From positions 434,001 to 498,000 of the forward strand of contig NZ_CP014699.1 of the NCBI RefSeq assembly GCF_001642085.1: a stretch of DNA of 64,000 bases. Direction: 5' to 3'. The notes beneath the pieces are model-generated. The model was not told the origin of the DNA, did no database searches, and saw only the letters and a program-made list of their open reading frames with translations. This DNA comes from Streptococcus pantholopis (GTDB lineage Bacteria > Bacillota > Bacilli > Lactobacillales > Streptococcaceae). The position numbers and the translations under genes are program-made. Positions 30,575 through 51,888 of this stretch are shown in pieces. Position 1 is the stretch's first letter, and each line of letters starts with the position of its first letter.

Positions 30575-30926
30575 GAATTAAACACGCCCCAAAATCTAGT
30601 GTAAACTATGTTTATTAGTAGGTGCGTCTGCGAAATCAGAGATTTCGGACTTACCGTCATTTTTGCTTTGCTCTTTTACGGGCTTTGTATCTTGTTGGAA
30701 TTGAACACGCCCTAAAATCCTAGTGAAAAAGATGTCTGTCAGCGTGATGCCAGCATCACTTGCCATCCCCTATTTTCATACGGATTTTTAAACGGGCTTT
30801 GTATCTTGTTGGAATTGAACACGCCCTAAACGCTGCGGGAAAAAGATGGCCTGACTTAGAATCGGGCGATTCGTCAGCCAGTCCCCTATTTTCCTTTTGC
30901 GTTTTAACGGGCTTTGTATCTTCTTG
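30575..30926. repeat. Modular hairpin repeat array 1 (upstream of frr)
   Basis: In order: a linker remnant (AATTAAACACGCCCC), a partial 'E' unit (GAAATCAGAGATTTCGGAC), the end of a 'C' module, the linker GGGCTTTGTATCTTGTTGG/AATTGAACACGCCC, an 'A' module (AAAATCC ... GGATTTTTA with inner GTGATGCCAGCATCAC), another linker, a 'B' module (AAACGCTGCGGG ... TTGCGTTTT with inner GAATCGGGCGATTC), and a final half linker ending just before the frr ribosome-binding site. Confidence 0.85.
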
Positions 30927-30944
30927 TAAGGAGTGTATATTTTT

Positions 30945-31502
30945 ATGACTAATGCTATTATTGAGAAAGCGCAGAAACGTTTTGAGCAGTCTCATCAGTC
31001 TCTGTCGCGTGAATTTGCAGCTATCCGTGCGGGGCGTGCTAACGCCAGCCTTCTGGATCGGATTCAGGTGGAATATTATGGGGTTCCAACTCCCCTTAAC
31101 CAGCTTGCGTCGATTACGGTGCCTGAGGCACGTGTCCTCTTGGTTTCACCCTTTGATAAATCTTCTTTGAAAGATATTGAACATGCTATCAATGCCTCAG
31201 ATTTAGGGATTAATCCGGCTAATGATGGTTCTGTTATCCGCCTGGTGATTCCGGCTTTGACAGAGGAGCGGCGCAAAGAATTGGCTAAAGAAGTGAAAAA
31301 GACAGGGGAAAATGCCAAAATTTCTATTCGCAATATTCGCCGTGATGCAATGGATGAAGCGAAGCAGCAAGAAAAAAATAAGGATATCACTGAAGATGAG
31401 CTGAAAATGCTGGAAAAGGATATTCAAAAGGCAACCGATAATGCTGTTAAGCATATTGATGAGATGACAGCTAATAAAGAAAAAGAGCTGTTGGAAGTTT
31501 AG
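30945..31502 (+). CDS. frr: Ribosome recycling factor
   Basis: The ATG at 30945 follows TAAGGAG; the 185-residue product has the normal size. It has the three-helix bundle with the family segments [15 protein letters not shown] and [20 protein letters not shown] residues near 100-120. It splits ribosomes after termination together with EF-G. Usually pyrH lies directly upstream; here the ribosome-binding site is fused to the end of a hairpin-repeat array, so expression may no longer depend on the pyrH promoter. Confidence 0.97.
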
Positions 31503-31793
31503 GGCCAAGGAAGCTGATTGTTCTGTGCAGAAGAGGGCGGGCAAGAGAGCAGTTTTATAGAAACTCTGCTTTTCTCCCGTTTTTTCTGTTTCAAACCAAA
31601 TTCAGCGCCTATTTCAAATCCGTATGAAAAGGAAAGGAAAAAAGATTTTTAAAATAAAAGTGAATCCGCTCTTGATCTGACAGTCTGTCAAAAAAGCACC
31701 TGCTGCTGTGGGACTGTGATAATATTTCACTTAAGTTCAAGTTATTTTCGCTTAAACAGGATTGCCAGTTATTTTTAAAAGTCTTTATATTTT

Positions 31794-32675
31794 ATGATGA
31801 ATCAGCTACTTGCAACTGTCGTTACCGGATTGGTAACTGATGAAAATGAACAGTTTTATTTTATTCAAAAAGATGGCATAACATTTGCTCTTGCTAAAGA
31901 AGAGGGAGAGCATCAGTTAGGTGATATGGTCAAAGGTTTTGTCTATACAGACATGAAACAAAAGCAGCGTATGACAACAAAAGAAGTGCAGACTACCCGA
32001 AGTCACTACGGATGGGGAGAGGTCACCGAAGTCCGCCGTGATTTAGGGGTATTTCTTGAGGTCGGTTTGCCGGATAAACAGGTTGTCGTCTCACTGGATT
32101 TGTTACCGGATCTTAAAACACTTTGGCCCAAAAAGGGAGATAAGCTTTATGTATCTTTGTCTGTAGACCGGAAAAATCGTATTTGGGCAGTTCCGGCGGC
32201 TCCTGAGGTTTTTCAGAAGATGGCCGGGCCAGCTTATAATAATATGCAGAATCAGACTTGGCCTGCTATTGTTTACCGCCTGAAACTTTCTGGCACCTTT
32301 GTTTATCTGCCTGAAAATAATATGCTGGGGTTTATCCACCCAAGCGAACGTTATAATGAGCCGAGACTGGGAGAGGTTCTCAATGCCCGTGTTATCGGTT
32401 TTCGCGACGCTGACCGTACGCTTTACCTGTCGCTTAAGCCGCGTTCTTTTGAAACACTGGAGCAGGACGGTCAAATGATTTTAGCCTATCTTCAGGCTAA
32501 TGGCGGTTTTATGACCTTGAATGACAAGTCTTCACCTGATGAGATTAAGGCTGTTTTCGGCCTGTCAAAAGGTCAGTTTAAAAAAGCTCTAGGTGGATTG
32601 ATGAAGGCTGGACAAATCAAGCAGGATAAAACAGGAACCGAGCTTGTCAAAGAAGCCTCACCGGACAAGAAGTGA
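31794..32675 (+). CDS. CvfB-like S1 RNA-binding protein
   Basis: A 293-residue protein with S1-type RNA-binding folds in tandem (about 1-65, 68-135 and 150-220; SHYGWGEVTEVRRDLGVFLEV and GTFVYLPENNMLGFIHPSER are typical) and a C-terminal winged helix (KAVFGLSKGQFKKALGGLMKAG). This matches the CvfB/YitL family, RNA-binding regulators of virulence or metabolism genes in Gram-positives. ATGATG at the start leaves a one-codon ambiguity. The 290-base gap before it has a weak hairpin near 31530-31580 and no gene. Confidence 0.88.
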   Translation: MMNQLLATVVTGLVTDENEQFYFIQKDGITFALAKEEGEHQLGDMVKGFVYTDMKQKQRMTTKEVQTTRSHYGWGEVTEVRRDLGVFLEVGLPDKQVVVSLDLLPDLKTLWPKKGDKLYVSLSVDRKNRIWAVPAAPEVFQKMAGPAYNNMQNQTWPAIVYRLKLSGTFVYLPENNMLGFIHPSERYNEPRLGEVLNARVIGFRDADRTLYLSLKPRSFETLEQDGQMILAYLQANGGFMTLNDKSSPDEIKAVFGLSKGQFKKALGGLMKAGQIKQDKTGTELVKEASPDKK

Positions 32676-32930
32676 AAGCAAGGCTGAAATGAGGGCAGGT
32701 TTATCCTATTTTTTAAGTCTGTCAGTTGGGGAAAGTTTCTCTCGGTTAGAAGTTATAGAGGATGAGGTTAGGTCTGTCGGCCTAACTTTTTAGTCGGACA
32801 GCCTTTTAATTTTTTGCTACAATAGGGTGAGACTAGAGGCTGATAGCTCAAGTTTTAACCCTCAAAAATACTTGAGGATTCAAAACCAAAGGATAAAAGA
32901 TCTAATTTAAGAAAAATTGGCTGATTAAGC

Positions 32931-33483
32931 AAAAATTGAACACGGGCTAAGCTCTGTGTAAAAAAGTTCTAGCTAAGTTTAGAATTGATTTCAAGTGAGC
33001 TAACTGTTGACGTCTGGGAGTGGGACAGAACCCTAATCAAAGAGTTCGTCATCCCACCTCCGCAAGACCTAGTAGGTAGTTTAAAGCTTTGAAAAAGCGA
33101 ATAAAATACCACTAGACGACTAGCGTTCTGCAGCACAGACCTGAGATGATTTTGAAAGCTTAAATTTTTGCCGCCCACCCCCATCCAACCGTCCTGGCAG
33201 AGGTGGGTCTGTCAAATCGGAGATTTCGGACTTACCGTCAGCCGTAAACGTCTGAAAGCTTTGTCGCCTTAACAGTCGACCGCACCTTTCTAGTCGTTCT
33301 GGCAGGGGTGCGCAGACGAAATCATAGATTTCTGGCTTACCGCCATCCGTAAACGTCTGAAGGCTTTGCCGTCTTTACAGCCGACCGCCCCCTTCTAGTC
33401 GTCTTGGCAGAGGTGCGTCTGTCAAATCAGAGATTTCGGACTTACCGTCATTTCATATGGATTTGAGGCGGGCTTGTGTTTTA
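32931..33483. repeat. Modular hairpin repeat array 2 with 105-bp units
   Basis: It starts with the linker end AATTGAACACGGGCTAA and a 'C'-like arm, then a TGGGAC-type block (33013-33060), then three units of 105 bases ('E'; GGCAG at 33196, 33301 and 33406). Each has a small hairpin (GAAATC..GATTTC) and the block CCGTAAACGTCTGAA. It ends with GCGGGCTTGTGTT directly in front of the ribosome-binding site of the YozE-like gene. The preceding 32676-32930 contains no gene. Confidence 0.8.
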
Positions 33484-33493
33484 GTGGAGGAGA

Positions 33494-33715
33494 ATGTTTG
33501 TGAGAAAATCATTTTATACTTGGCTGATGACTCAGCGTAATCCTAAAAGTCAGGCTCCGGCAGCTCGTTTGGCTGATCTGGTTTTTCAGGAGTCTGAATT
33601 TCCTAAGCATACTGCAGATTTTGATGTGATTAGCCGCTATTTGGAGGAAAGAGCAGGATTTTCTTTTAATCTCAGTGAATTTGACCAAATTTGGGAGGAT
33701 TACCTGCTTCACTAG
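33494..33715 (+). CDS. YozE/UPF0346 family protein
   Basis: A 71-73 residue helical protein, [14 protein letters not shown]...[16 protein letters not shown] and [10 protein letters not shown], matching the YozE SAM-like family conserved in Firmicutes. Function unknown. Either ATG 33494 or GTG 33500 could be used; AGTGGAGGAG upstream suits the GTG better. It precedes the ADP-ribosylglycohydrolase-like gene by 15 bases. Confidence 0.9.
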
Positions 33716-33730
33716 AAAAAGGGGAATTTT

Positions 33731-34570
33731 ATGAATAAGCTGCGCGCTGCTGTTTATGGACTGGTTGTCGGCGATGCTTTAGGATTTCCTGTAGAATTTA
33801 AGAAACGCGGCAGTTTTTATGTGGAAGAGATGACTGGTTTTGGAACTTATAATCAGCCTCCTGGGACATGGTCTGATGATTCCAGTATGACATTAGCAAC
33901 CTGTGATTCAATAAGGGAGATGGGGCGGATTGACTTAGATGATTTGCGCAGACGTTTTGAAAATTGGCTTTTTCATAGCGCCTATCGTGCGGGTGAAAGC
34001 TTATTTGATTATGGACGGACAACTTACGAGGCTTTGAAGGGCGGTTGCGGTATCAATGATTATCAGGCAAACGGCAATGGTTCATTGATGCGGATTATAC
34101 CGCTGGCCTTTCTTGATGTCAGCGACAGCGAAATTGAAGCGGTGTCGGCTCTTACCCATGCTCATCCCATTTCGAAGGAAGCCTGTTGTATTTATATCAA
34201 TATTGCCCGCCATCTTTTGGCTGGTCAAGATCTTTCTGCTATTTTAAAAGGATTAGAAGTCAGTGCACCTTTTGCTGATTTGAAAAATTTAGAGGTATTG
34301 CCTGAAAGCCAGGTCTCTTCCTCGGGCTTTGTTATCCACACTCTTCAGGCTTCGCTGTGGTGCCTGCTGCAAACCAGTTCTTTTTCTGAGGCTGTTTTAA
34401 GGGCGGTTAATCTGGGAGATGATTCGGATACGACAGGAGCGGTTACGGGTGCTTTGGCCGGAATAGTCTATGGCTATGAGGCTATTCCCAAAAACTGGAT
34501 TGCAGAGCTTAGGAATAAAGAGCTGATAGAGCGTTGTCTGTTTGATACGAACTTGATGAGTCATCAGTGA
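33731..34570 (+). CDS. ADP-ribosylglycohydrolase-family protein
   Basis: A 279-residue alpha-helical hydrolase of the DraG/ARH type. It has the metal-site motifs GDALG (14-18), TWSDDSSM (~47-53), NGSLMR (~120) and NLGDDSDTTGA (~232-242), all needed for the two-magnesium centre, so it should be active. It removes ADP-ribose from protein or nucleic acid, or hydrolyses related compounds. It is probably cotranscribed with the YozE-like gene. Confidence 0.9.
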   Translation: MNKLRAAVYGLVVGDALGFPVEFKKRGSFYVEEMTGFGTYNQPPGTWSDDSSMTLATCDSIREMGRIDLDDLRRRFENWLFHSAYRAGESLFDYGRTTYEALKGGCGINDYQANGNGSLMRIIPLAFLDVSDSEIEAVSALTHAHPISKEACCIYINIARHLLAGQDLSAILKGLEVSAPFADLKNLEVLPESQVSSSGFVIHTLQASLWCLLQTSSFSEAVLRAVNLGDDSDTTGAVTGALAGIVYGYEAIPKNWIAELRNKELIERCLFDTNLMSHQ

Positions 34571-34788
34571 TAAGCCCATAATACTGCATTTAGAGGCTTT
34601 CTGCTTTATTTCATTTTACCTTAAAAAAACTAGAGCAAGGTCTTTGCTTTGAACATTGTGGCAGTCTGACTTACGGCAAAAGTCAGGCCGATTGCCGATT
34701 TGTTTTTAAACCGGTCTGCAGACTGTAAAGGCGTTATTGAGGGACAGGCTTTACTGTCATGAAAAAGTCACGCTATGAGTGTGATTTT

Positions 34789-34798
34789 TTGGTATAAT
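34789..34798 (+). promoter_or_regulatory. phoH promoter -10
   Basis: TTGGTATAAT (extended -10, TATAAT at about 34793) lies ~150 bases before phoH. The hairpin module at 34822-34933 is located between this promoter and the start, so it would be part of the phoH mRNA leader. Confidence 0.6.
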
Positions 34799-34821
34799 GA
34801 AGGCACGGTAGCGATTTAATA

Positions 34822-34933
34822 ACTGAACACGCCCTAAACGCTGCGGGAAAAAGATGGCTGCCAGCATGATGCCCAGCATCACTTGCCATCCCCTATTTTC
34901 CCATTGCGTTTTTAATGGGCTTTGTATCTTATT
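34822..34933. repeat. Single hairpin module in the phoH leader, mosaic of two types
   Basis: Linker half (AACTGAACACGCCC), then the outer arms of a 'B' module (AAACGCTGCGGG ... TTGCGTTTTTA) enclosing the inner loop of an 'A' module (GATGCCCAGCATC), then the second linker half (GGGCTTTGTATCTT). The outer and inner parts come from different module types. Confidence 0.85.
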
Positions 34934-34944
34934 TGAGGAGTGTA

Positions 34945-35928
34945 TTGTTGCAAGATTTTTCAATTGATATTACCTTGAATCATCCGGATGATTTGCTTAA
35001 TTTATTTGGTTCCAATGAACGCCATTTAAAATTAATCGAAGACCATCTGGGAGTGACTATTCATGCTAGAACAGAGCGTATCCAAATAGTCAGCAGCGAT
35101 CAAGAGTCTCTTGAAACAGCCAGATTGGCTATTGAGGCTCTTCTTATTCTGGTCAGCCGTGGTATGTTAATCAATACTTCTGATGTTATAACGGCTTTGT
35201 CCATGGCAGAAAACGGCAGTATTGACCAGTTTGTGGCACTTTATGAGCAGGAGATTATTACAGACACGTATGGCCGTCCGATACGAGTAAAAACTTTAGG
35301 ACAGAAAGCTTATGTGGACAGTGTTAACAGCCATGACCTTGTGTTTGGAATAGGTCCTGCAGGGACCGGAAAAACTTTTTTGGCAGTAACGCTTGCGGTC
35401 ACTGCTTTAAAACGCGGACAGGTAAAACGTATTATTCTGACCAGACCAGCGGTTGAAGCCGGTGAAAACCTAGGATTTTTGCCGGGAGATCTCAAAGAAA
35501 AGGTTGATCCTTATCTGCGTCCGGTCTATGATGCCCTTTATCACATTTTAGGAAAAGAACAAACCGTCCGTCTGATGGAGCGCGATATTATTGAGATTGC
35601 CCCTTTAGCATACATGCGGGGGCGTACGTTGGATGATGCCTTTGTTATTCTTGATGAAGCCCAAAACACAACGGTTATGCAGATGAAAATGTTTTTGACG
35701 CGTTTGGGTTTTCATTCAAAAATGATTATCAATGGTGATATCAGCCAGATTGATTTGCCCCATCACGCTAAGTCCGGTTTAGTTGATGCTTCTGAAAAAC
35801 TGAAGGGTATTAAGGCGCTGGACTTTGTTTATCTGTCAGCCAAAGATGTTGTCCGACATCCTCTTGTCGCAGAAATCATCGACGCTTATGAACAACAAGA
35901 TACAAAGGCCGTTAAAAAATCCGTATGA
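34945..35928 (+). CDS. phoH: PhoH-like ATPase
   Basis: A ~327-residue protein with an N-terminal KH-like region (SNERHLKLIEDHLGV) and a P-loop ATPase domain with Walker A GPAGTGKT (~residue 137) and Walker B AFVILDEAQN (~235). PhoH proteins are RNA-linked ATPases. No ATG is present; consecutive TTG codons at 34945/34948 follow GAGGAG and match the family N-terminus (LQDFS). The last ~10 codons ([11 protein letters not shown]) lie inside a reversed hairpin-repeat linker, so the natural C-terminus appears to have been replaced. Confidence 0.9.
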   Translation: MLQDFSIDITLNHPDDLLNLFGSNERHLKLIEDHLGVTIHARTERIQIVSSDQESLETARLAIEALLILVSRGMLINTSDVITALSMAENGSIDQFVALYEQEIITDTYGRPIRVKTLGQKAYVDSVNSHDLVFGIGPAGTGKTFLAVTLAVTALKRGQVKRIILTRPAVEAGENLGFLPGDLKEKVDPYLRPVYDALYHILGKEQTVRLMERDIIEIAPLAYMRGRTLDDAFVILDEAQNTTVMQMKMFLTRLGFHSKMIINGDISQIDLPHHAKSGLVDASEKLKGIKALDFVYLSAKDVVRHPLVAEIIDAYEQQDTKAVKKSV

Positions 35929-36187
35929 AAATAGGGGATGGCAAGTGATGCTGGCATCACGCTGACAGCCATCTTTTTCCCGCAGCGTTTAGGGTGTGTT
36001 TAATTAACAAGATACAAAGCCCGTTTAAAGCTCACAGCAAAAATAGGAGCCTGCCTGCTGAGTCATCGAAGACCAAAGGAAGGCTATACTCACAGAGCAG
36101 CCACATTCGTATGTCAGCTTACGCTTCCTACGATTGCGTCTCTTTTTTGCAAAGAGCTTAGGCCGTGTTCAATTCAACAAAGTACAG
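35891..36187. repeat. Modular hairpin repeat array 3 (reverse orientation)
   Basis: Read on the minus strand: a linker, a 'D' module (GCTCTTTGCAAAAAAGAGACG ... GCTGTGAGCTTTAA, ~130 bases), a linker, then a hybrid module with 'B' left arm (AAACGCTGCGGG) and 'A' right arm (CATACGGATTTTTTAAC), and a final linker half that lies within the 3' end of phoH. The array separates phoH from the glycosylase gene. Confidence 0.85.
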
Positions 36188-36230
36188 TGATCTGTTTAAC
36201 CTTATTGTGAAAGTGAAAGGGAGGGGTATA

Positions 36231-36812
36231 GTGGCAGAGACAGTATTTCAGAAAATCATGCAGGATGAAGCCAATCTGACTTATACTCGGGCCGGAATCG
36301 AGCCTCTATTCGCTGCACCGAAAACAGCCCGTATTGTGATTGTCGGGCAGGCTCCGGGGATTGTTGCTCAGACAAGCCGTCTGTACTGGAATGACCGGAG
36401 CGGTATCCGTCTGCGGGACTGGCTGGGAGTGGATGAAGAAACCTTTTACCATTCCGATCTTTTTGGCATTTTGGCTATGGATTTTTACTATCCGGGTAAG
36501 GGGAAATCCGGAGATTTACCGCTGCGCAAAGGTTTTGCTGAAAAGTGGCACCCTCAGCTGTTGGCGCAGATGCCGGAAGTTAAATTGGTGATTTTGGTTG
36601 GCAGCTATTCACAGCAGTATTATTTAGGTGCTGACCGCCGTAAAACTTTAACAGAGACCGTTCAGCACTATAAAGACTACCTGCCTCAGTACTTTCCTTT
36701 GGTCCATCCTTCTCCCCGCAATCAACTTTGGATGGCCAAAAACCCATGGTTTGAAGAAGATGTCATACCGGCATTGAAAACAGTTGTAGCTGAAATTTTG
36801 GAAGGGGCATAG
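36231..36812 (+). CDS. Uracil-DNA glycosylase family protein
   Basis: Starting at GTG 36231 behind GGGAGGGG the product has 193 residues; upstream in-frame codons lie in repeat sequence. Motif A is IVGQAPGIVAQ and motif B HPSPRNQLW, as in the UDG superfamily enzymes that remove uracil or other damaged bases. It belongs to the small 'uracil-DNA glycosylase-like' group seen in streptococci; exact specificity is unknown. Confidence 0.85.
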   Translation: MAETVFQKIMQDEANLTYTRAGIEPLFAAPKTARIVIVGQAPGIVAQTSRLYWNDRSGIRLRDWLGVDEETFYHSDLFGILAMDFYYPGKGKSGDLPLRKGFAEKWHPQLLAQMPEVKLVILVGSYSQQYYLGADRRKTLTETVQHYKDYLPQYFPLVHPSPRNQLWMAKNPWFEEDVIPALKTVVAEILEGA

Positions 36813-36923
36813 ATCTGTCTAAGCTGGGGATAAAAAGTCTTTGAGGCGGTTTTCAATTATTTTACTAATTTTAACTGTTGAAAATCCTAAAATAGGCGTG
36901 GCAGTAGAGAATGCGCTGCAGTT

Positions 36924-36962
36924 TGAAGACGTTTCTGCTCAGGTAGCAAAACGTCTTTTTAT
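36924..36962 (+). terminator. Terminator after the glycosylase gene
   Basis: Arms AAGACGTTT and AAACGTCTT with a 13-base loop followed by TTTATT. Confidence 0.8.
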
Positions 36963-36997
36963 TCTTCAAAAAGAGCGCGAATATTTTTTCTGTGGTA

Positions 36998-37152
36998 TAA
37001 TGGGGGTGAGTAAAGATTAGCGAAAGGAAGAGGACAGTCCCCTGCTGTAAGGGGCATCAGTCAGGTGCTTTGCAGCAGACTCAGCCATTACCAAAATGTC
37101 CGTCAGAAGTTTTTCTGCCGGGTTTGGCTGCTGTCCTAAACAGCTTAATTAA
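36998..37152 (+). promoter_or_regulatory. Promoter and ~150-base leader of ybeY
   Basis: TGTGGTATAATGG gives a -10 near 36999-37006. The transcribed leader contains GTCCCCTGCTGTAAGGGGC and a small inverted repeat GCTGTCCTAAACAGC just before the ybeY ATG, and no evident Shine-Dalgarno sequence. No known riboswitch was recognised. Confidence 0.45.
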
Positions 37153-37647
37153 ATGTATATAGAGATGGTTGATGAGACAGGACAGGTCTCTCAGGAGATG
37201 ATGGCGCAAACACTTGACCTGCTTAATTTTGCTGCAGAAAAGATCGGCAAAGAAAATAAGGAGATGGCGGTGACTTTTGTGACAAATGAGCGCAGCCGCC
37301 AGCTGAATGTCAAATACCGTGAAACTGACCGCCCGACTGATGTCATTAGTCTGGAGTATAAACCTGACCGACCTGCAGCCTTGGGCAGCACATCTGCTAA
37401 AGAAAATGCAGAGCTGGCTGACTTGCTGGAAGAGCTGAACGCCTATATCGGTGAACTCTTTATTTCTGTTGATAAAGCGCATGAACAGGCGGCAGAATAC
37501 GGTCATTCTTTTGAACGGGAAATGGGTTTTTTAGCGGTGCATGGCTTTTTGCATATTAACGGCTATGATCACTATACGCCCGAAGAGGAAAAAGCAATGT
37601 TCACACTACAGGAAGAGATATTAACGGCTTATGGACTTACGCGATAA
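37153..37647 (+). CDS. ybeY: Endoribonuclease YbeY
   Basis: A 164-residue zinc RNase with the metal site [11 protein letters not shown] (H130, H134, H140), needed for 16S rRNA 3' end maturation and ribosome quality control. TDVISLEY near residue 62 is also typical. The start MYIEM matches streptococcal homologues although no ribosome-binding site is visible. It overlaps dgkA by 17 bases. Confidence 0.95.
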
Positions 37648-38038
37648 TCATTCACAAAAAAAGTGGAAAAATATGACCCTGATGGCAAGTATGGAATTTG
37701 CCATTACCGGAATTTTAACGGCTTTTAGAGAAGAACGTAATCTGCGCAAGCACTTAGTGTCTGCCGTTTTAGCGGCTCTTTCCGGTCTTATTTTTAGAAT
37801 TTCAGGGCTGGAATGGCTCTTTCTTTTCTTGGCCATTTTTTTGGTTATTGCCTTTGAAATTGTGAATTCAGCTATTGAAAATGTGGTTGACCTAGCCAGC
37901 AATTATCACTTTTCCATGCTGGCTAAAAATGCTAAAGATATGGCTGCTGGGGCTGTTTTGGTTGTTTCAGGCTACGCTGTTTTGACGGGCTTGATTATCT
38001 TTTTGCCTAAAATTTTCAGATTAATTTTTGGGCTGTAG
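37631..38038 (+). CDS. dgkA: Diacylglycerol/undecaprenol kinase
   Basis: A 135-residue three-helix membrane kinase with the signature [14 protein letters not shown] (about 75-88). In Gram-positives this enzyme phosphorylates undecaprenol to recycle the wall lipid carrier; in S. mutans it is linked to acid tolerance. The start overlaps ybeY, and era follows after a repeat insertion, so the usual ybeY-dgkA-era order is conserved. Confidence 0.93.
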
Positions 38039-38129
38039 CGATCATTGTTTATTATTAATTGGAAAGGAAGGAAAACACTGTATTTGGCCGTCTGACAAGG
38101 TCAGCCAAATACGAAAGTTGTACGGTTAA

Positions 38130-38312
38130 CCTGTTCTTAGATGAGGCTGGGAAAAAGTACTGCCTCGTTTCACTTTTTTGGACATGTGAGTTTGATGCAG
38201 TGGTTGATTGGAAGTTCTTATCCCCTGTCAAGCAAGGGACAGCGACCTCTCTAACCAACTTTGCGGAGGTAGGACAACAAAATCAAAATCGTTATTTTAT
38301 GACGATTTACTG
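38130..38312. repeat. TGGGAC-type intergenic repeat, reversed long copy between dgkA and era
   Basis: Its reverse complement matches 23280-23475 block by block: 'aaatcgtcataaaat', 'gattttgttgtcctacctccg', 'gaggtcgctgtcccttg', 'ggataagaacttcc', 'aaaaaagtgaaacgaggca'. The insertion separates era from dgkA. Confidence 0.8.
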
Positions 38313-39560: not shown

Positions 39561-40398
39561 TAGCCGCCCCCTTCTAGTTGTTCTGGCAGAGGTGCGCCTA
39601 CGAAATCAAAGATTTCGGACTTACCGCCAGCCGTAAACGTCTGAAGGCTTTGTCGCCTTAACAGTCGACCGCCCCCTTCTAGTCGTCTTGGCAGAGGTGC
39701 GTCTGCGAAATCAAAGATTTCGGACTTACCGCCAGCCGTAAACGTCTGAAGGCTTTGTCGTCCTAGCGGCCGACCGCCCCCTTCTAGTTGTTCTGGCAGG
39801 GGTGCGCAGACGAAATCACAGATTTCGGACTTACCGTCTTTTTGCTTTGCTCTTTTAACGGGCTTTGTATCTTGTTAAATTGAACACGCCCTAAAATCCT
39901 AGTGAAAAAGATGGCTGTCATCGTGATGCGAGCCTCACTTGTCATCCCCTATTTTCATACGGATTTTTTACCGGGCTTTGTATCTTGTTAATTGAACACG
40001 GGCTAAGCTCTTTGCAAAAAAGAGACGCAGTTGTAGGAAGCGTAAGCTGACATACGAATGTGGCTGCTCTGTGAGTATAGTCTTCCCTTAAGTCTTTAGT
40101 GACTCGGCAGTCAGGCTCCTATTTTTGCTGTGAGCTTGAACGCCCTTTGTATCTTGTTAATTGAACACGCCCTAAACGCTGCGGGAAAAAGATGTCCTGA
40201 CTTAGAATCTGGCGATTCGTCAGTCAGTCCCCTATTTTCCTTTTGCGTTTTTAACGGGCTTTGTATCTTGTTGGAACTGAACACGGGCTAAGAGCTGTGC
40301 AAAAAAGATAAAATCTCCTAGAGTCTTAGCGACTCTTCGTCAATTTTCCTATTTTTGCTTTGCTCTTTTAACGCCCTTTGTATCTTGTTGGAGGTGTG
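39558..40398. repeat. Modular hairpin repeat array 4, most diverse
   Basis: From left: two full and one partial 105-base 'E' units (GGCAG at 39585, 39690 and 39795), a 'C' end, then linker-'A'-linker-'D'-linker-'B'-linker-'C'-linker. The linkers are versions of GGGCTTTGTATCTTGTT(GGA)ATTGAACACGCCC. The last linker runs into TTGGAGG, the ribosome-binding site of the DinB-like gene. All module types are present, each with its own inner hairpin (e.g. GAGTCTTAGCGACTC in 'C'). Confidence 0.88.
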
Positions 40399-40400: not shown

Positions 40401-40925
40401 ATGGGGTATTTGGATATGTTGACAGAGAGTGTTGATCGTGCTGTGGAACGTTTTGAGCGTTTGTTTGAAGGGGTAACAGCTGAGCAGGCCAATGCTTTTC
40501 CCGCAGAGAAGATATCGGAGCAGCTGAAATCAATGACTTGGCTGGCTTGGCATACAGCAAGGGAGATGGATTTTCAAATTGCAGACTTGGCTGGCAGCCT
40601 GCCTATTTGGCTCAGTCAGGGCTGGAAGGAGAAGTTTCGTCTGGATTTGCCGGATGATACGCAGGACTGGTGCCATACATTGGCAGAGGCCAAGAAGGTT
40701 CAAGTCAGTGACTTAGAGCTTGTACTGGCTTATTTACGTTCGGCTGCTGATTTTACTAAAAGTTACCTCAAATCATTGGATGAAAAACACCTTGATGATG
40801 TGATTGATGAGAGCTGGACACCTGCGGTTACCAGAGGAATGCGTTTGGTTTCGATTATTGATGATGCAGCCATGCACTCAGGGCAAGTGATTTATGCCAG
40901 ACGTCTTCTTGGTTTACAAGATTAA
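40401..40925 (+). CDS. DinB-superfamily protein
   Basis: A 174-residue four-helix protein with spaced histidines (WLAWHTAREMD near residue 51 and AAMHSGQVIYARRLLG near 158) that fit the metal-binding DinB/YfiT fold. Members act as thiol-dependent transferases or have unknown roles. The start lies behind TTGGAGG contributed by the end of a repeat linker. The gene precedes mutM by 13 bases and may be cotranscribed with it. Confidence 0.8.
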   Translation: MGYLDMLTESVDRAVERFERLFEGVTAEQANAFPAEKISEQLKSMTWLAWHTAREMDFQIADLAGSLPIWLSQGWKEKFRLDLPDDTQDWCHTLAEAKKVQVSDLELVLAYLRSAADFTKSYLKSLDEKHLDDVIDESWTPAVTRGMRLVSIIDDAAMHSGQVIYARRLLGLQD

Positions 40926-44052: not shown

Positions 44053-44625
44053 CAGGCGGTCTCTTATAGAATGATGAGGTTCGGTGTTTGCCAGCCTCGA
44101 AAGATGTGCAGGCCAAAAGTCAGTTACGTTTTTTGATGAAATAGATAAGACTAAAGAGACAGATCTGCAGTGAATTACGGGCAGAAAAAGGGGTTATACA
44201 CGATAAATAACGCTTTTTACTTAAAAATAGTTGTTAAAAAAGCAGACCCTTATCTCTTGAATGTTTACAGCATAAAAGTCAGGAGTTGAGACATCTTTCT
44301 CAGCTCATTTTTATTGTCTGCACCGCTATATAGTTGCTGGCATAAGGATTCCAACTTTATACAATACAAAGGCTTCAGCCGCTTTTGTAAATGTGAAGAG
44401 AACAGAAAAAACTATTAGATAGCAGCTATTGAGTTTTCCTGGCTTTCCTACTGCCAGACTTAGGATTCTTCAGTTCTTTGTTATAAAAGAACAAGGAAGA
44501 TTTTGCTTCAGCTGACTTTCCGGCCTGTAATAGTCTGCCTGCAGACCGGATATCATTTTTAAGAGAGTGCAGACGATAATAGCCCGGTCAGTTTTTGACT
44601 GCGGGCCTACAATGATAGAAAAAGA
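44053..44625. other. 573-base gap with no recognisable gene
   Basis: Between secG and rnr no frame with a plausible start and homology was found on either strand. The sequence is AT-rich and not of the hairpin-repeat type. It could contain the rnr promoter and possibly an untranslated RNA, but no convincing promoter-terminator pair was seen. Confidence 0.6.
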
Positions 44626-46950
44626 ATGATGAAAGAAAAAATAATAGATTATTTAGAAAAACAAGGCAAGACGGATGTCAATGATTTAGCCGCCGCTCTG
44701 AATATGGCTGGGGCTAAGGCCTTTCCGACTCTTATCAAGGCCATTTCCAAACTGGAAAGCCAAGGGCGGCTCCGCTTTGATAATGCCGGCAACCTTGCCC
44801 TGCGTAAAAAAGTATCCAGGAAAAAACCGCAGATAACAATCAAAGGCCTTTTCCGGGCAAATAAAGCCGGTTTTGGCTTTTTGTCGGTTGATGGAGCTGA
44901 GGAAGAGCTTTTTATCGGCCGTAATGATACAGGCTATGCTGTTGACGGAGATACTGTTGAAGTCGTTATCACAAAAGTAGCAGACCGCTTTAAAGGGACA
45001 GCAGCTGAAGCTAAGGTAGTCGGTATTCTTGACCGCCAGCTTAAAACAGCTGTCGGTCAATTTGTGCTGGACGATGAAAAGCCTAAATATTGCGGCTATA
45101 TCAAGTCCCGCAACCCGAAAATTCAGCAGAAAATCTATATCAGAAAGGAACCGATCCTTCTTGATGGCACTGAAATTATCAAAGTTGATATTGAGAAGTA
45201 TCCCAGTCGAGGGCATGATTATTTTGTTGCCCGAGTAAGGGATATTATCGGTCATCAGGGGGAGGCCGGCCTCGATGTTCTGGAAGTCTTAGAGTCCATG
45301 GATATTGTGTCAGAATTCCCACAGGCTGTTTTGGACGAAGCAGAAGCTATAGCAGATACTCCTACTGAAAAGGACAGGATTGGTCGGATCGATTTGCGCG
45401 ATGAGCTAACTTTCACAATTGACGGAGCCGATGCCAAAGATTTAGATGATGCAGTGCATGTCAAGTGTCTGCCTGACGGTCATTTTGAATTGGGCGTCCA
45501 TATTGCTGATGTCTCCTATTATGTTAAGGAAAATTCAGCTTTAGACCGAGAAGCCCGCAGGCGGGGGACTTCCGTTTATGTGACTGACCGTGTGGTTCCT
45601 ATGCTGCCGGAGCGTTTGTCAAATGGGATTTGCTCTCTTAATCCGCAGGTCGACCGCCTGACCCAGTCCTGTATTATGGAAATTGACGAACAGGGCCAGG
45701 TGCTGCATTATCAACTGGGTCAGTCAATAATAAGGACCAGATTTCGGATGACTTATGACGAGGTCAATGCTATCATCGCTGGCGATGAAGCGCTGTCTGA
45801 AAAATATGCGCCTATTGCCGATTCACTCAAACAAATGGTTGCTCTTCACCAAATATTAGAGGACATGCGCATCAAGCGCGGTGCCTTAAACTTTGATACT
45901 AAGGAGGCAAAAATCCTTGTCAACAGCAAGGGTCTGCCTGTAGACATTAGCTTGCGTCAGCGGGGAGTAGGGGAGCGCTTGATTGAATCGTTTATGCTGC
46001 TGGCTAATGAAACCGTGGCTAAACATTTTGCTAAAAGAAAGCTGCCCTTTATTTATCGGATTCATGAAGAACCAAAGGCAGAAAAACTGCAGCAGTTTAT
46101 TGACTATGCCAGTGTTTTTGGTGTACAGATTCACGGAACAGCTAATAAAATGGATCAAAAAGACCTGCAGGCCTTTATGGCAAAGATACAGGGTCAGCCG
46201 GGTCAGGAAGTGCTTGCTACAATGTTGCTTCGTTCCATGCAGCAGGCCCGTTATTCTGAGCACAACCAAGGACATTACGGTTTGGCAGCGCCCTATTATA
46301 CACACTTTACCAGTCCGATACGCCGTTACCCCGATTTGCTGGTGCATCGGCTTTTGCGTGATTACGGACAGTCGCAGACTGAAAAAATAGATCATTTCAG
46401 CCAAATCATACCGGAGATTGCCCAGGAGTCTTCCAGCTTGGAACGTCGGGCTGTTGATGCTGAGAGAACAGTTGAGGCTATGAAAAAGGCTGAATACATG
46501 GCCCAGTTTGTCGGACAGGAGTTCACAGGGCTTGTCTCAAGTGTTGTCAAATTCGGTCTTTTTGTTGAACTACCTAATACGATTGAGGGCTTGATCCATA
46601 TCAGCAGTTTACCAGAATTTTACCACTACAATGAACGGGATTTATCACTTCGCGGGGAAAAATCCGGGCGGGTATTCCGTGTCGGACAGCTCCTTAAAGT
46701 CAAACTTCTTAAGGCTGACAGAGAAACAGGCGACATTGACTTTGCTTACGTCCCAAGTCCTGATGATACTGTTGAAAAAAATAAGACTCTGCCTGAGCGC
46801 AAACCTCAGCATAATCGCAAAAAACGCCGGCCAGATCAAGAAGGCCGCAAGGTATCATCTAAAAAAGGAAAAGCTTCAGTAAAACTAAAGAATAAACAGC
46901 CTTTTTACAAATCGGCTGCGAAAAAAAGAAGGAAAAAAAGGAGGAGATGA
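44626..46950 (+). CDS. rnr: Ribonuclease R
   Basis: A 774-residue 3'-5' exoribonuclease: N-terminal winged helix (1-70), two cold-shock OB domains ([17 protein letters not shown]), the RNB catalytic domain ([15 protein letters not shown], four Asp metal ligands), an S1 domain ([18 protein letters not shown]) and a lysine/arginine-rich tail. It degrades structured RNA and works with SmpB/tmRNA on stalled messages; smpB overlaps its end by four bases. Confidence 0.97.
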
Positions 46951-47411
46951 TGGCTAAAAATGCTGATCAGCAATTGGCCCAAAATAAAAAGGCGAGGCAT
47001 GATTACCATATCCTTGAAACCATTGAAGCCGGTATTGTTCTGACGGGAACAGAAATTAAAAGTGTCCGTGCCGGCCGCATTCAGTTGAAAGATGGCTATG
47101 CTCAAATCAGAAACGGTGAAGCCTGGCTAATCAATGTTCATATTGCCCCCTTTGAGCAAGGCAATATCTGGAATCAAAATCCCACTCGGACCCGGAAGCT
47201 TTTACTGAAAAAACGCGAACTAACTCAGCTGACTAATGATCTTAAAGGGAGCGGCATGACTCTAGTTCCTCTGAAAGTCTATCTCAAAAACGGTTTTGCC
47301 AAAGTCCTTATCGGATTGGCAAAAGGGAAACATGACTATGACAAACGTGAGACCATCAAACGCCGTGAGCAGGAACGCGATATCAAAAGGCAGCTGAAGA
47401 ATTATCGTTAG
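46947..47411 (+). CDS. smpB: SsrA-binding protein SmpB
   Basis: A 154-residue protein (ATGATG start) with [30 protein letters not shown] and the basic tail [14 protein letters not shown]. It brings tmRNA to stalled ribosomes. It overlaps rnr and ends before a bidirectional terminator. Confidence 0.97.
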
Positions 47412-47474
47412 GAGCTTAAGTTGTCTTTTAGCCGGTGATAAGGCAGATTGCTAATTCACAGGCCAAAGAGCTTA

Positions 47475-47510
47475 AAAAAGGTTTGGAGCTATCCAGCTCC
47501 AAACCTTTTT
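47475..47510. terminator. Bidirectional terminator between smpB and the LanC-like gene
   Basis: Arms AAAAAGGTTTGGAGCT and AGCTCCAAACCTTTTT around a four-base loop; it serves both converging genes. Confidence 0.9.
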
Positions 47511-48894
47511 AAGTCAAACTGATAAAGGGATCATCAATCAGCCGCTTCCACTTTAACTGCCGCTGACTTTCAAATTGATAAAGTTCCAGTAAAACAGTGG
47601 CTATTCCGGCAGCACCATCATAAAAACCAGTAAAAGTAGAAAGTTCACTGGGACTGATTCGATTAAAGGCGATGGGGAAACTGATTCCTTTTTCAGACCT
47701 GCTGGCATTTCCTAGGACAACAGCGGCAGATCGTCTGGCTAAATCAAGATAAAGCGTCTTTTTATTGTCGGCATAAAGTCCTAAAAAATGGTGGATAAAA
47801 CCTGCAGCGCCGCAGCAAAAAGTCGTTGTGTTCCAGTAGCCGTTGGACTGATGCTCTGGGGCTCCCCTGCTGATCAAACCGGCGGTCAAAGCTTCTACTT
47901 GCTCTAAATAATAGCTATCCTCAGTTAGCTGGTAGAGATAATAGAAAAAGCGTGAAGTCCCAATTGCTCCGTGACAATTTCCCAGATAAAATACTTGACG
48001 CTGAGGGCCGTTTGTACGGTACGGAATCAAATAGCCTTCTTTTTGGGGGACAGCAAGATTAACCAGAAATACAGCAGCATCTTTTGCAGCCTGCAAAAAG
48101 TACTGTTCGTGGGTTAGCTCATATGTTTTTCCAAAAAGATAGCCGGCCCCTGCTGAACCAAATTCCCAATTGGGAAGATCACGCTTGTCAGCAGCAGAAA
48201 CAGTATTGATTTCCAGCCCGTTATCAATATGCCGATGGCCGTTAGCTATAAGATAGCGGACACCGGATTTGATTGTTTCTAAAAGTCTGCTGCTGGGGAA
48301 ATGCTGGTAGGCTTTGATGAGAAAGAGCAAGATACCGCTGTCATGAAAAAGGGGAGAATCACCTGTCCAGCAGATTCCCTTGTCAGTCTGTTTAGCCCTT
48401 TCTAAATAATAATCTGCAATTTCCTGAGCGGATCTTAAAGCCTCTTCATTGTCATAGTTTTCTGCTATTTCAAGCTGAATAAGTCCGACCCCTCCAATAC
48501 CTCCGTAAAGCCCCATTCCTGCTCCTGCGATGTCAAAAATATCCAGCTTTGCCAAAATCTGCCAATGTTGAGTAAGGTAATGGCTGGCTTTCCTGATGAT
48601 AGAAAGATAAGACGCATCATGTGTGATTTGATAGAGCTTATTATAAAAATACAAGATACCTGCTGAACCGCTGAAAAAATTGGGGTTGCTGAAATCTGAA
48701 ATACTGAGCTGGGCTTCATTATTGGTATTGCGCCACCAGATGCCATCCTCCGATTCCACTTTGAACTGATCAATATACTCAGCCGCCTGAATAGCCAGAT
48801 TCAAATAGTTTTCAGCCTTTTCAGCCTGTTTAAGCGGAAAGGGCTGCCTGTCGTGATAACCTGTGTGAGTGTGAATGAAACAATTCTGACACAT
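47509..48894 (-). CDS. LanC-like protein with CHG/CCG zinc motifs
   Basis: A 461-residue alpha/alpha-barrel protein made of repeated Gly-rich turns (FFSGSAGI, YGGIGGVG, EFGSAGAGY, FYDGAAGIA), as in lanthionine cyclases. The zinc ligands are visible as GNCHGAIG (C307) and FCCGAAGF (C360, C361). In most LanC proteins the second motif is CHG; the CCG form is known from LanM cyclases with three cysteine ligands (ProcM type). There is no dehydratase or lantipeptide gene nearby. It starts immediately after a cysteine synthase gene (TAAATG) and is clearly cotranscribed with it, so a role in thiol addition to a small molecule or protein is suggested (inference). Confidence 0.82.
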   Translation of the reverse strand: MCQNCFIHTHTGYHDRQPFPLKQAEKAENYLNLAIQAAEYIDQFKVESEDGIWWRNTNNEAQLSISDFSNPNFFSGSAGILYFYNKLYQITHDASYLSIIRKASHYLTQHWQILAKLDIFDIAGAGMGLYGGIGGVGLIQLEIAENYDNEEALRSAQEIADYYLERAKQTDKGICWTGDSPLFHDSGILLFLIKAYQHFPSSRLLETIKSGVRYLIANGHRHIDNGLEINTVSAADKRDLPNWEFGSAGAGYLFGKTYELTHEQYFLQAAKDAAVFLVNLAVPQKEGYLIPYRTNGPQRQVFYLGNCHGAIGTSRFFYYLYQLTEDSYYLEQVEALTAGLISRGAPEHQSNGYWNTTTFCCGAAGFIHHFLGLYADNKKTLYLDLARRSAAVVLGNASRSEKGISFPIAFNRISPSELSTFTGFYDGAAGIATVLLELYQFESQRQLKWKRLIDDPFISLT

Positions 48895-49893
48895 TTAATT
48901 CACCTCCTGATACATTGGACTGGAAAGATATTTCATGCCATTATCAGCAAAAATTAAGACGATATTTTTTCCTTTGTTTTCGTCCTTCTGAGCGACAGTT
49001 TTGGCAGCATGCAAAACAGCGCCGGCAGATTCACCTAAGAAGATACCGTCAGTACGGGCAAGTTCAAGACCGGTTTTATATCCGTCTTCTGCCAAAACAT
49101 CGATACAGCTGTCATAATAAAAATGATTTTTTGAAAAGAAGGTCGGCTGGTTCTCCGGTCCGAAACCATCAAAGGCAACAATGCCGTCAATACTGTTGAC
49201 ATCAGGCTGCTCTGCTGAGGGGCGAGATGCTTCAGCAGGTTCAACGGCAATAATTTCAATATCTGGTTTTTTCTGCCGAAAATACTGTGCTAATCCGGCA
49301 ATTGTTCCGCCGGTGCCAGCAGCCATAATAAGGATATCGACTTGCCCGTCGGTATCTTCCCAAATTTCAGGACCGGTCGTCTGATAATGTGCCTCGGGAT
49401 TAGCCTGATTGCTTACTTGATCAGTATAAAAATAGCCTTTGCTGTCGGCATATGCCTGAATAATACGGCTGATTTCCGCCGTCTCAAAAGCCCCCTTGTC
49501 CATCATTTTTGCAATTTCAGGGAAATCCAGAAAACTGCGGAGATGAGCGCCGTAAGCTTTTAAGATTTGAGTACGCTCCGGAGATACACCGGGTTCCAGC
49601 AGACATTCAAAATGGTAGCCCTTGGCAGCAGCAATAGCTGCCAGAGCAATCCCCGTATTTCCGCTGCTGTTATCAACGATTGTATCACCCTTTCGCAGCT
49701 TTCCGGCTTTTTCTGCCTCAGTAATCATGTTAAGTGCAGCTCTGTCCTTGACGCTGCCGCTTGGATTCAAATATTCCAACTTAGCGAATAATTTAGCCTG
49801 CAAGCCGTACTTTTTTTGAAAATTGCGCAGTTCAACCAAAGGAGTTTTTCCAACCAGTTCTGCAATAGATGCCTTAGTATTTGCCATCATCAT
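48895..49893 (-). CDS. PLP-dependent cysteine synthase family protein
   Basis: A 332-residue fold-type II PLP enzyme with the lysine in NPSGSVKDRAA (K49), the substrate loop SSGNTGIALA and the phosphate-binding GTGGTIAG. It resembles CysK/CysM and bacterial cystathionine beta-synthases, which join a thiol to a serine-derived aminoacrylate. ATG triplet start behind GAGAGGAT. The last codons carry AGGAGGTG, the ribosome-binding site for the LanC-like gene. A promoter with extended -10 TGCTACAAT lies at about 49925-49935 on this strand. Confidence 0.85.
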   Translation of the reverse strand: MMMANTKASIAELVGKTPLVELRNFQKKYGLQAKLFAKLEYLNPSGSVKDRAALNMITEAEKAGKLRKGDTIVDNSSGNTGIALAAIAAAKGYHFECLLEPGVSPERTQILKAYGAHLRSFLDFPEIAKMMDKGAFETAEISRIIQAYADSKGYFYTDQVSNQANPEAHYQTTGPEIWEDTDGQVDILIMAAGTGGTIAGLAQYFRQKKPDIEIIAVEPAEASRPSAEQPDVNSIDGIVAFDGFGPENQPTFFSKNHFYYDSCIDVLAEDGYKTGLELARTDGIFLGESAGAVLHAAKTVAQKDENKGKNIVLIFADNGMKYLSSPMYQEVN

Positions 49894-50004
49894 ATCCTCT
49901 CTTTTCCCTGTATATTATTTTATTGTAGCATTTCCTGTTTTTTTGCATAGGATAGATTAGTTATAACGACGCATAAGAAAAAGTTATGGTATCATTGTGA
50001 TAAT

Positions 50005-50047
50005 AAAAAAGAGTGAAACAAAAAGATTTTTGTTTCACTCTTTTTTA
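50005..50047. terminator. Terminator downstream of the OhrR-like gene
   Basis: AAAAAAGAGTGAAACAAAAA and TTTTTGTTTCACTCTTTTTT form a long hairpin with T-runs on both strands. It ends the regulator gene transcribed toward it. Confidence 0.85.
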
Positions 50048-50085
50048 GCAGAATGATTATGAAATAAAGGATCAAGCTGCAAGAA

Positions 50086-50526
50086 TCAGTTTTGTTCTTT
50101 TAATGCTTTAGCCAAGTCCTGTTGATCTTTAATCATGTCCCGGAGTTTATCAGCTGAAAAAAAAGTCACTTCGCTTAAACAGCTGTTAAGCACCTTTTCA
50201 ACTTCCTCCTGCAGCTTTTCGCCGCGGTCGGTCAATTGTACAATCAGCTGACGCTGGTCTTTTTCAGGTCGGAGCCGCATCAGCAGCCCCTTATCCTCTA
50301 AGCGTCTAAGCAAAGGCGTCAGTGTATTGCTGGCTAAGTTAAGTTTTTGTCCTAGTGCCTGCAAAGACTGGCCATTTTTTTCCCAAAGAGCTAAAAGAAC
50401 CAAGTACTGCGTATAAGTCAGTCCAAAAGGACTGAGGCTTTTTTTGTAAAACTGATTAAGCAGGCGGTTGCTGTTATAAATAGCAAAGCAAAGCTGGTCA
50501 GTTAGATGCGGATGCTGTGATGACAT
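50086..50526 (-). CDS. OhrR-like MarR-family regulator
   Basis: The ATG at 50526 follows GAAGGA; the product has 146 residues. It has a winged helix (YTQYLVLLALWEKNGQSLQA, LASNTLTPLLRRLEDKGLL, RPEKDQRQLIV) and an N-terminal cysteine in QLCFAIYNSNRL at the position of the reactive cysteine of OhrR, which senses organic peroxides. It is divergent from the ferritin-like gene across a gap holding two palindromic sites. Confidence 0.85.
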   Translation of the reverse strand: MSSQHPHLTDQLCFAIYNSNRLLNQFYKKSLSPFGLTYTQYLVLLALWEKNGQSLQALGQKLNLASNTLTPLLRRLEDKGLLMRLRPEKDQRQLIVQLTDRGEKLQEEVEKVLNSCLSEVTFFSADKLRDMIKDQQDLAKALKEQN

Positions 50527-50538
50527 AGTAACCATTCC

Positions 50539-50554
50539 TTCGTGTACGATTGAA
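50539..50554. promoter_or_regulatory. Second regulator-binding site (imperfect)
   Basis: TCGTGTACGATTGAA shares ATCGT/ACGAT half sites with the perfect palindrome at 50621-50640. It lies within the regulator's own leader and could mediate autoregulation. Confidence 0.45.
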
Positions 50555-50620
50555 AATATCATAACACAAATTAAAATATTTGACAAGTGTATTGGAAAAC
50601 AGTAGACTAATATTAATCTA

Positions 50621-50640
50621 TTTAATCGTGTGCGATTAAA
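50621..50640. promoter_or_regulatory. Perfect palindromic operator before the ferritin-like gene
   Basis: TTTAATCGTGTGCGATTAAA has perfect 8-base arms around TGTG and lies 18 bases before the ferritin-like start. It is a plausible OhrR-type operator. Confidence 0.7.
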
Positions 50641-50657
50641 AGAAAGGGATGGTTACA

Positions 50658-51116
50658 ATGCAGGAAAATCACACTATCGTTCATGTTTTACAAAATCTTG
50701 GCAATGCTATGCTGGTACAGGCTGACAGGCACCAGCTTGTCGCTTTGCAGTTTGCAGCACAGGGTTTTTCAAAACTCGGCCGGAAATATCAGGAACATGC
50801 TGAGGAAGAACGCGGCTTTGCCCAGCAAATGTTTAATCGTGTTCTGGATTTAGGCGGCCAGCTTTTTTTGACTGAGCAAGAGGCGGCAGACCTGCCGGAA
50901 ACACCTTTGGAATGGCTGAAAGAAGAGCTGGAGATTTCGCGGTTGGGTCTAAAAGAAATTCTTCCGATCGTGCAGGCAGCGGCTGATGATATTACCACTT
51001 ATGATATCCTTAAGGACTATTATAAGGATGAAGAAGAGGATCTGTACTGGACAGAGCAGCAGCTGGATTTGATTGAGGCTATTGGCTATCAAAATTGGCT
51101 GACTAGGCAAATTTAA
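50658..51116 (+). CDS. Ferritin-like-domain protein
   Basis: The ATG at 50658 follows AAAGGGATGG. The 152-residue helical protein has paired carboxylate/histidine positions (QEHAEEERGFAQQM near 47 and KDYYKDEEEDLYWTEQQ near 125) typical of four-helix ferritin/Dps-like di-iron proteins. It probably stores iron or protects against peroxide, consistent with control by the adjacent OhrR-like regulator. Confidence 0.75.
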   Translation: MQENHTIVHVLQNLGNAMLVQADRHQLVALQFAAQGFSKLGRKYQEHAEEERGFAQQMFNRVLDLGGQLFLTEQEAADLPETPLEWLKEELEISRLGLKEILPIVQAAADDITTYDILKDYYKDEEEDLYWTEQQLDLIEAIGYQNWLTRQI

Positions 51117-51126
51117 GCTAAGAGAA

Positions 51127-51888
51127 AAGAGGCGCGTCTGCGAAATCGCAGATTTCGGACTTACCGCCAGCCGTAAACGTCTGAAGGCTTTGCCGTCCTA
51201 GCGGCCGCCCGCCCCCTTCTAGTCGTCTTGGCAGAGGTGCGCAGACGAAATCACAGATTTCTGGCTTACCGTCATTTTTGCTTTGCTCTTTTAGACGGCC
51301 TTTGTATCTTGTTGGAATTGAACACGGCCTAAAATCCTAGTGAAAAAGATGCCTGTCATCGTGATGCCGGCATCACTTGCCAGTCCCTATTTTCATACGG
51401 ATTTTTAAACGGCCTTTGTATCTTGTTGGAATTGAACACGGCCTAAAATCCTAGTGAAAAAGATGCCTGTCATCGTGATGCCGGCATCACTTGCCAGTCC
51501 CTATTTTCATACGGATTTTTAAACGGCCTTTGTATCTTGTTGGAATTGAACACGGCCTAAAATCCTAGTGAAAAAGATGCCTGTCATCGTGATGCCGGCA
51601 TCACTTGCCAGTCCCTATTTTCATACGGATTTTTAAACGGCCTTTGTATCTTGTTGGAATTGAACACGGCCTAAAATCCTAGTGAAAAAGATGCCTGCCA
51701 TCGTGATGCCGGCATCACTTGCCAGTCCCTATTTTCATACGGATTTTTAAACGGCCTTTGTATCTTGTTAATTGAACACGGCCTAAGAGCCGTGCAAAAA
51801 AGATAAAATTTCCTAGAGTCTTAGCGACTCTTCGTCAATTTTCCTATTTTTGCTTTGCTCTTTTAACGGCCTTTGTATCTTGTTGGAG
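51127..51888. repeat. Modular hairpin repeat array 5 with four identical-length 114-bp units
   Basis: One and a part 'E' units (51127-51270), a 'C' end, then four tandem linker-'A' units of exactly 114 bases (TTTGTATCTTGTT at 51301, 51415, 51529, 51643 and 51757), then a linker-'C' unit and a terminal linker ending in TTGGAGGAG, the ribosome-binding site of msrB. The four 'A' units are nearly identical; the last differs by one base in TGCCATCG versus TGTCATCG. In this array both linker ends read GGCC instead of GGGC/GCCC. Confidence 0.92.

Follow-up and report, generated by a model that had tools for sequence, protein, structure and literature searches.

We analysed a 64,000-nucleotide (nt) stretch of Streptococcus pantholopis DNA (assembly GCF_001642085.1, contig NZ_CP014699.1, positions 434,001 to 498,000 of the forward strand; hereafter the window, with positions counted from its first nucleotide), which carries copies of a repeated element of about 110 nt with a hairpin structure, many of them lying directly before Shine-Dalgarno (SD) sequences. 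An initial annotation of the window had described five arrays and one single module of hairpin repeats, in which a constant linker alternates with exchangeable cassettes. All six loci were present, with arrays at 30576-30922, 32934-33490 (degenerate), 35896-36174 (minus strand), 39564-40387 and 51130-51882 and the single module at 34821-34931; the linker core GGGCTTTGTATCTTGTT, with up to 3 mismatches, gave 17 matches in the window against 0.33 expected from shuffles.

The first array, delimited from nhmmer matches and the sequence, consists of three plus-strand modules: a hybrid with an A-type 5' half, an E-type interior and a C1-type 3' half (30576-30694), a module with outer stem A and inner hairpin GTGATG..CATCAC (30699-30808), and a last module with outer stem B and inner hairpin GAATC..GATTC (30813-30922). 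Immediately 3' of the array is the SD sequence AAGGAG (30928-30933, plus strand) of frr, the gene for ribosome recycling factor (ATG at 30945). Further along the plus strand follow a long degenerate module with a C2-type 5' end, three E units and a decayed 3' end, then GGAGGAG (32934-33490), and the lone module, with outer stem B and a GATGATG-type inner hairpin, 5' of the phoH SD (34821-34931; TTG at 34948). The minus-strand array combines a module with outer stem C2 and a D side insertion (36008-36174) with a hybrid of a B 5' half and an A 3' half (35896-36005), the 3' end of which overlaps the last phoH codons. The fourth array, on the plus strand, starts with a run of three 105-nt E units closed by a C1-type 3' half (39564-39874), and continues with a type A module (39878-39987), a C2 module with D insertion and closing pair GGGC/GCCC (39990-40156), a type B module closing with GCCC/GGGC (40159-40270) and a C1 module closing with GGGC/GCCC (40275-40387), after which come the SD GGAGG at 40390 and the ATG at 40401 of a DinB-like protein. 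The fifth, also on the plus strand, comprises a run of two E units with a C1-type 3' half (51130-51311), four near-identical A modules at a spacing of 114 with closing pair GGCC/GGCC (51316-51767), and a C1 module (51770-51882) followed by the SD GGAGGAG at 51885 and the ATG at 51898 of a SelR-domain protein. The window genes with an element 5' of their SD are frr, phoH, the DinB-like gene and the SelR gene. The earlier statement that several arrays end at an SD held for four of the six loci in a scripted test (SD 2-6 nt past the end) and, by eye, for 32934-33490 with its GGAGGAG, and failed for the minus-strand array.

The division into linker and cassettes did not stand. One imperfect hairpin spans the whole module end to end, from AAYTGAACACG to CTTTGTATCTTG, and the supposed linker is the place where two neighbouring elements meet, the first contributing its 3' end and the second its 5' end. 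The letters GGGC, GCCC or GGCC in it pair across each cassette: they were perfectly complementary in 144 of 171 modules, as GCCC/GGGC (75), GGCC/GGCC (56) or GGGC/GCCC (13). The module contains the helices P0 (GAACA with UGUAUC), P1 (GNNC with GNNC, the letters just described), P2, an A-rich/U-rich stem, P3 and P4, with conserved internal loops AAAAAGAU / UCCUAUUUU and, in the commonest inner types, UUCCU / UUCGUCA. P2 occurs as four outer stem types in the genome of the window and in genome G130. Exchangeable inner parts and mixed arrays, as proposed, were borne out by recombination of outer and inner types, outer stem B being found with GAATC (21), GAGTC (18), E (7) and GTGATG (4). After setting aside 16 of the 171 modules with an unclassified half, matching halves were counted in 113 of 120 short modules and in 26 of 35 long ones, and the remainder were hybrids; decayed copies were also present. 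The cassette types are real, with two corrections made by eye: E, 105 nt long, is repeated within a module where the apical hairpin would otherwise stand, and D is a side insertion within a C2-type module. Because many apparent truncations are runs of E units, 5' truncation of the kind seen in SINEs is not claimed. At four loci in three species (L129, L130, L140, L141) the module is preceded by other sequence (GCGACAGGACGAAGGTGGATCGATA...) behind a solo 3' end.

Covariation of the paired arms, the absence of which had been named as a point that could overturn the description, was strong. An alignment of 42 modules from nine genomes, drawn from 71 first aligned by omitting A-type inner hairpins, one odd module and some near duplicates, had 93.5% of 1332 cells paired, and 22 of 32 pairs were altered on both sides. 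It scored 0.426, where shuffles scored 0.153 and slid partners no more than 0.119, a comparison biased in favour of the structure over its slid versions, since the structure was hand-drawn from the same aligned sequences.

The element is not confined to the window. We counted 403 linker cores in its genome at up to one mismatch, and none with a reversed-pattern control. A hidden Markov model built from 70 modules gave 161 matches in 54 arrays of up to eight matches each, occupying 3.66% of a 464-kb sample (the window plus 20 spaced 20-kb stretches). A covariance-model search of other streptococci, as suggested in the initial annotation, extended the family to the whole genus: model R1 matched 242 of 247 Streptococcus genomes at E<=0.01, in a scan that scored 15 candidates per genome, so that its copy numbers are lower bounds. 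R1 matches numbered 22 in S. hyovaginalis DSM 12219, 16 in S. pseudoporcinus LQ 940-04, 20 in Streptococcus sp. DD13 and 1 in S. phocae, and none were found in S. danieliae, two Floricoccus genomes and Pilibacter. Density elsewhere in Streptococcus was far lower (six species gave 10 matches over 400 kb, and there were none in the 80 kb taken from G043, the 80 kb from G014 and the 60 kb from G213), which makes the genome of the window exceptional. At the level of the order, 42 of 148 Lactobacillales genomes matched at E<=0.001, 20 of them Streptococcus and 22 others, including 14 in one other family, a weak extension of the element to a second family. Five genomes of that family, searched singly, had 31, 16, 18, 10 and 3 matches, the best at E 2e-9 and some arranged in tandem, and the ends of the elements read AATTGAGCT and GCATCTT or GCATCCT. 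In an alignment of 15 distinct rows from this family, 97.8% of cells were paired and both sides had changed in 27 of 32 pairs, values that lean towards the model because the rows were fitted to it. Since the 3' end in this family can read GCATCCT while the loop remains AAGATA, we dropped loop-to-end complementarity (AAGATA with TATCTT, TCARTT with AAYTGA) as a guide of the bridge-RNA kind. One module and one second-family unit, compared by blastn with a plasmid collection, gave no match.

Two further settings were seen in these searches. The five rRNA operons of S. pseudoporcinus LQ 940-04 (L304-L308; identified with Rfam and ARAGORN in L304 and through sequence similarity in the other four) carry copies between tRNA-Ala and 23S and antisense copies in the 23S-5S spacer; the resulting five inverted match pairs, 3.2 kb apart, were considered as an autonomous element, which was rejected as they flank 23S genes and no transposon. 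Many mitis-type genomes have a near-identical antisense copy abutting the rpsO 3' end (L166-L177, about 1440-1610), and the copies in L169 and L172 carry a double change in P4 that keeps the pairing.

In the sampled genome of the window, placement relative to SD sequences was sharply one-sided. An SD and the start codon of an open reading frame of at least 50 codons lay within 40 nt of the 3' end in 39 of the 54 arrays, or 39 of the 48 with a complete 3' end (37 of 54 with a narrower list of SD words), with the start codon 8-22 nt past the element. The mirrored test at the 5' end gave 0 of 54, and 1 of 54 when the limit was 60 nt, while 301 of 8400 random intergenic positions (3.6%) passed. 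On the presumed leading strand, with the terminus assumed near 1.12 Mb, lay 41 of the 54 arrays. The frr leader was compared at 12 loci: the element stands directly 5' of the SD in five (L142, L144, L146, L147, L148), with at least four different outer stems, was not seen in six (L145, L149-L153), and L143 was ambiguous.

A different order was found at the heat-shock gene dnaJ. Among the best-matching dnaJ loci of the 247 genomes, taken from 30 species, 27 have the element between the SD and the AUG. All 27 carry an AAAGG-type SD at most 45 nt 5' of the element, the AUG follows TATCTT by 2-5 nt, and none has an SD-like word in the last 22 nt before the AUG. The three loci lacking the element (L280, L281, L290) have an AAGG-type SD near the AUG. 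The dnaJ alignment A7 (29 rows, two from earlier-fetched loci, 28 distinct) was 96.8% paired, with 17 of 28 pairs changed on both sides and a score of 0.378 against at most 0.137 for slid partners; its rows fall into five groups by closing letters, two of them single rows. Within one group columns 21/118 read C-G, U-G or U-A. In another, a P3 pair read off the alignment and outside the counted set is U-A in L303 versus A-U in most rows and U-U in L289, L295 and L299. In predicted folds the SD AAGG can pair with the element's UCUU. Five loci (L274, L301, L302, L275, L279) have GTGTTC, which can pair with GAACAC, and AACAAAG, which can pair with CTTTGT, between the SD and the element; judged from these motifs, a second conformation of those leaders is possible. 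Single abutting copies also precede deoD, carB and prfA, gene names being assigned from the start of each protein. Together with the genus-wide span and the position statistics at SDs, the placement between SD and AUG goes beyond what was first described.

Mobility is documented in phages. Thirteen phage records contain a copy, which in prophages of S. agalactiae and S. canis is located 5' of the tape-measure gene. Comparison of occupied and empty sites, another of the checks first proposed, revealed a difference of 112 bp: phages Javan29, 51 and 3 are occupied, and Javan25, 101, 639, 424 and 181 are empty and shorter by that length. The occupied site reads GATAGGA, the copy (ACTGAAC...TATCTTGAT), then GGAGGGAGGAG, with flanks GATAGGA / GATGGAGGGAGGAG; the phage copy is a 112-bp insertion inside a purine-rich SD. 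A diverged copy was also noted in an S. gallolyticus phage record (L266, 2499-2610), some 50 nt 5' of an annotated agglutinin receptor gene. The sole Y1 transposase of the S. pantholopis genome, an IS200-like gene at 37663 in the window, has ends that differ by eye from those of the element; an array lies about 500 nt beyond it. Elsewhere in the window, open reading frames with duplicated segments (repeats D14, D15) occupy 24806-30550, immediately 5' of the frr array, and presumably resemble a type VII secretion region; several related segments at 12588-16981 carry repeats of 60-190 nt (D6, D10, D11).

We favour, with somewhat better than even confidence, an explanation in which the copies are small non-autonomous mobile hairpins that are targeted to SDs, tolerated by translation, and in part retained as leaders. 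Insertion would be directed at SDs that are rich in purines and lie on the coding strand. Once transcribed, the hairpin would fold upon itself and leave initiation possible, so that copies could survive in 5' leaders. At dnaJ the SD and the AUG would be drawn close by the folded hairpin, which could also act as a translational switch if the UCUU at its 3' end pairs with the SD. Some copies would have been kept as leaders, and most would be tolerated passengers. A comparable arrangement is found in the phage T4 gene 38 and gene 25 leaders, where a hairpin between SD and AUG sets them at working distance; those are single native leaders, whereas here the hairpin belongs to a repeated mobile family.

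Several observations weigh against this explanation. SD adjacency is weaker in other species, where, of 61 matches examined out of 76 (mostly the top-scoring; the 15 omitted were mostly rpsO orthologues), 6 had an SD by the test and 7 lie against a start codon. At two more, L231 and L181, the script's first-start rule overlooked AAGGAG with a later GTG. Many copies outside the genome of the window are antisense at the rpsO 3' end. The predicted effect on folding was modest, the SD-to-start stretch having an unpaired value of 0.388 when the element is present, 0.334 when it is shuffled and 0.511 when it is absent (29 of 38, p 0.004): the SD appears somewhat freer than with shuffled sequence, yet in silico the element does not behave neutrally. 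Changes on both sides at dnaJ mostly distinguish one cassette group from another, and columns 21/118 are an unpaired A-A in L286 and L275, which belong to the same cassette group. A target duplication at the phage site fits 3 bp only (GGA), and 38 single copies showed no excess of flanking repeats of 2-5 nt; nothing consistent emerged from 35 distinct flank pairs at offsets 0-6 (21 tests). Finally, no mobilising gene was found in a search that covered Y1 transposases and did not extend to other transposase families.

The alternative that survives best is a parasitic repeat of the BOX type, inserted randomly and neutrally and spread in trans by an insertion-sequence transposase, its SD adjacency merely reflecting those leader insertions that survived. 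We consider it unlikely. Like BOX (boxA-boxB(n)-boxC), the present family forms stem-loops, has many intergenic copies and is in part composite with an iterated inner unit, a likeness of modular organisation and high copy number (PMC3049150); its hybrid and decayed copies, and the many copies away from SDs in other species, would suit such a parasite as well. Yet survival alone should not put copies within a few nucleotides of an SD, as in 39 of 54 arrays at the 3' end against none at the other and 3.6% at random. BOX is reported to affect neighbouring genes. It is described as over-represented between convergent genes (PMC3049150), in contrast to a family that abuts SDs in the genome of the window, and covariation within one orthologous site, dnaJ, also argues against the parasite. 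E units do iterate inside modules, but arrays consist mainly of whole elements in tandem.

The likeness to BOX noted at the outset holds for organisation and not for sequence. As a BOX marker we used the BOXA1R primer site. It was absent (0 sites at up to one mismatch) from the genome of the window, G130 and G206, and it occurred in 81 of 247 genomes as compared with R1 matches in 242. At 12 loci with a one-mismatch primer site and a boxC-like stretch (within 7 edits), no R1 match covers the site, and one adjoins it in L158. The BOX-type families and RepSU1 of S. suis, compared by description, likewise combine several exchangeable subsequences in permutations, according to PMC3049150. Miniature inverted-repeat elements (RUP, Correia elements, ERIC) are also short, non-autonomous, hairpin-forming and mobile, with an empty site seen here at 112 bp; the present element stands apart by its SD-proximal placement and may also differ in its termini, which show no clear inverted repeats beyond the imperfect foot of the hairpin, and in target duplication, which single copies do not show and the phage site fits as GGA. 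REP/RAYT systems pair a palindrome of 20-40 nt with a linked RAYT gene, unlike an element of about 110 nt in a genome whose lone Y1 gene lacks the element's ends.

In keeping with the first statement, in which no named family was recognised, the window had no Rfam match at gathering, and among nine matches at eight other loci (E<=0.5) none reached gathering on an element; L20_leader, the one that overlaps an element, lies on the opposite strand (29.5 bits versus 58.7). Two Streptococcus-only motifs that PMC2864571 tabulates without an Rfam accession, ScRE (marked y for cis-regulatory) and sanguinis-hairpin, may be the same family. A sequence-string search of 5.39 million open papers returned two papers, both unrelated, and a topic search no description among the listings.

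It is improbable that the family is a cis-regulatory RNA, whether attenuator, switch or thermometer, that has regulation as its main role and was copied through recombination after a single domestication. Retention before dnaJ, the single cases at deoD, carB and prfA, the predicted pairing of the SD AAGG with the 3' UCUU and the conserved internal loops are what such an RNA would display; against it, the genes served are unrelated, arrays hold up to eight matches, copies lie antisense to genes, in rRNA spacers and in a phage tail operon, and no terminator-like sites were present in the two window arrays scanned. A function at the DNA level, with the hairpin read as single-stranded DNA by an HUH or RAYT-type nuclease and RNA folding incidental, is very improbable: structure kept in copies everywhere, the strand bias and the tandem arrays would fit it, but stems contain G-U pairs, dnaJ has a U-G state, and the lone Y1 transposase of the genome has other ends.

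The structured repeat family is real and spans the genus. Its placement is SD-directed in the genome of the window, and elsewhere conserved copies sit within leaders; a claim to more is plausible but unproven. Beyond the favoured explanation, we tentatively suggest, though we would sooner bet against it, a new type of mobile element: an RNA or DNA hairpin that would recognise ribosome-binding sites as its integration target, insert either immediately 5' of the SD or in the gap that separates it from the AUG, and be passed by initiating ribosomes since its folded ends meet. Lactobacillales lineages might have kept copies, as at dnaJ, to serve as switches in which the 3' end masks the SD. The finding raises the question of the means by which a mobile element finds SD sequences. 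It places a structured repeat in the leaders of many genes, housekeeping genes included, and offers hundreds of natural insertions at ribosome-binding sites as material for testing how structure around the start codon relates to translation. The dnaJ order of SD, hairpin of about 110 nt and AUG has the look of a natural, conserved example of translation starting across a large insert.

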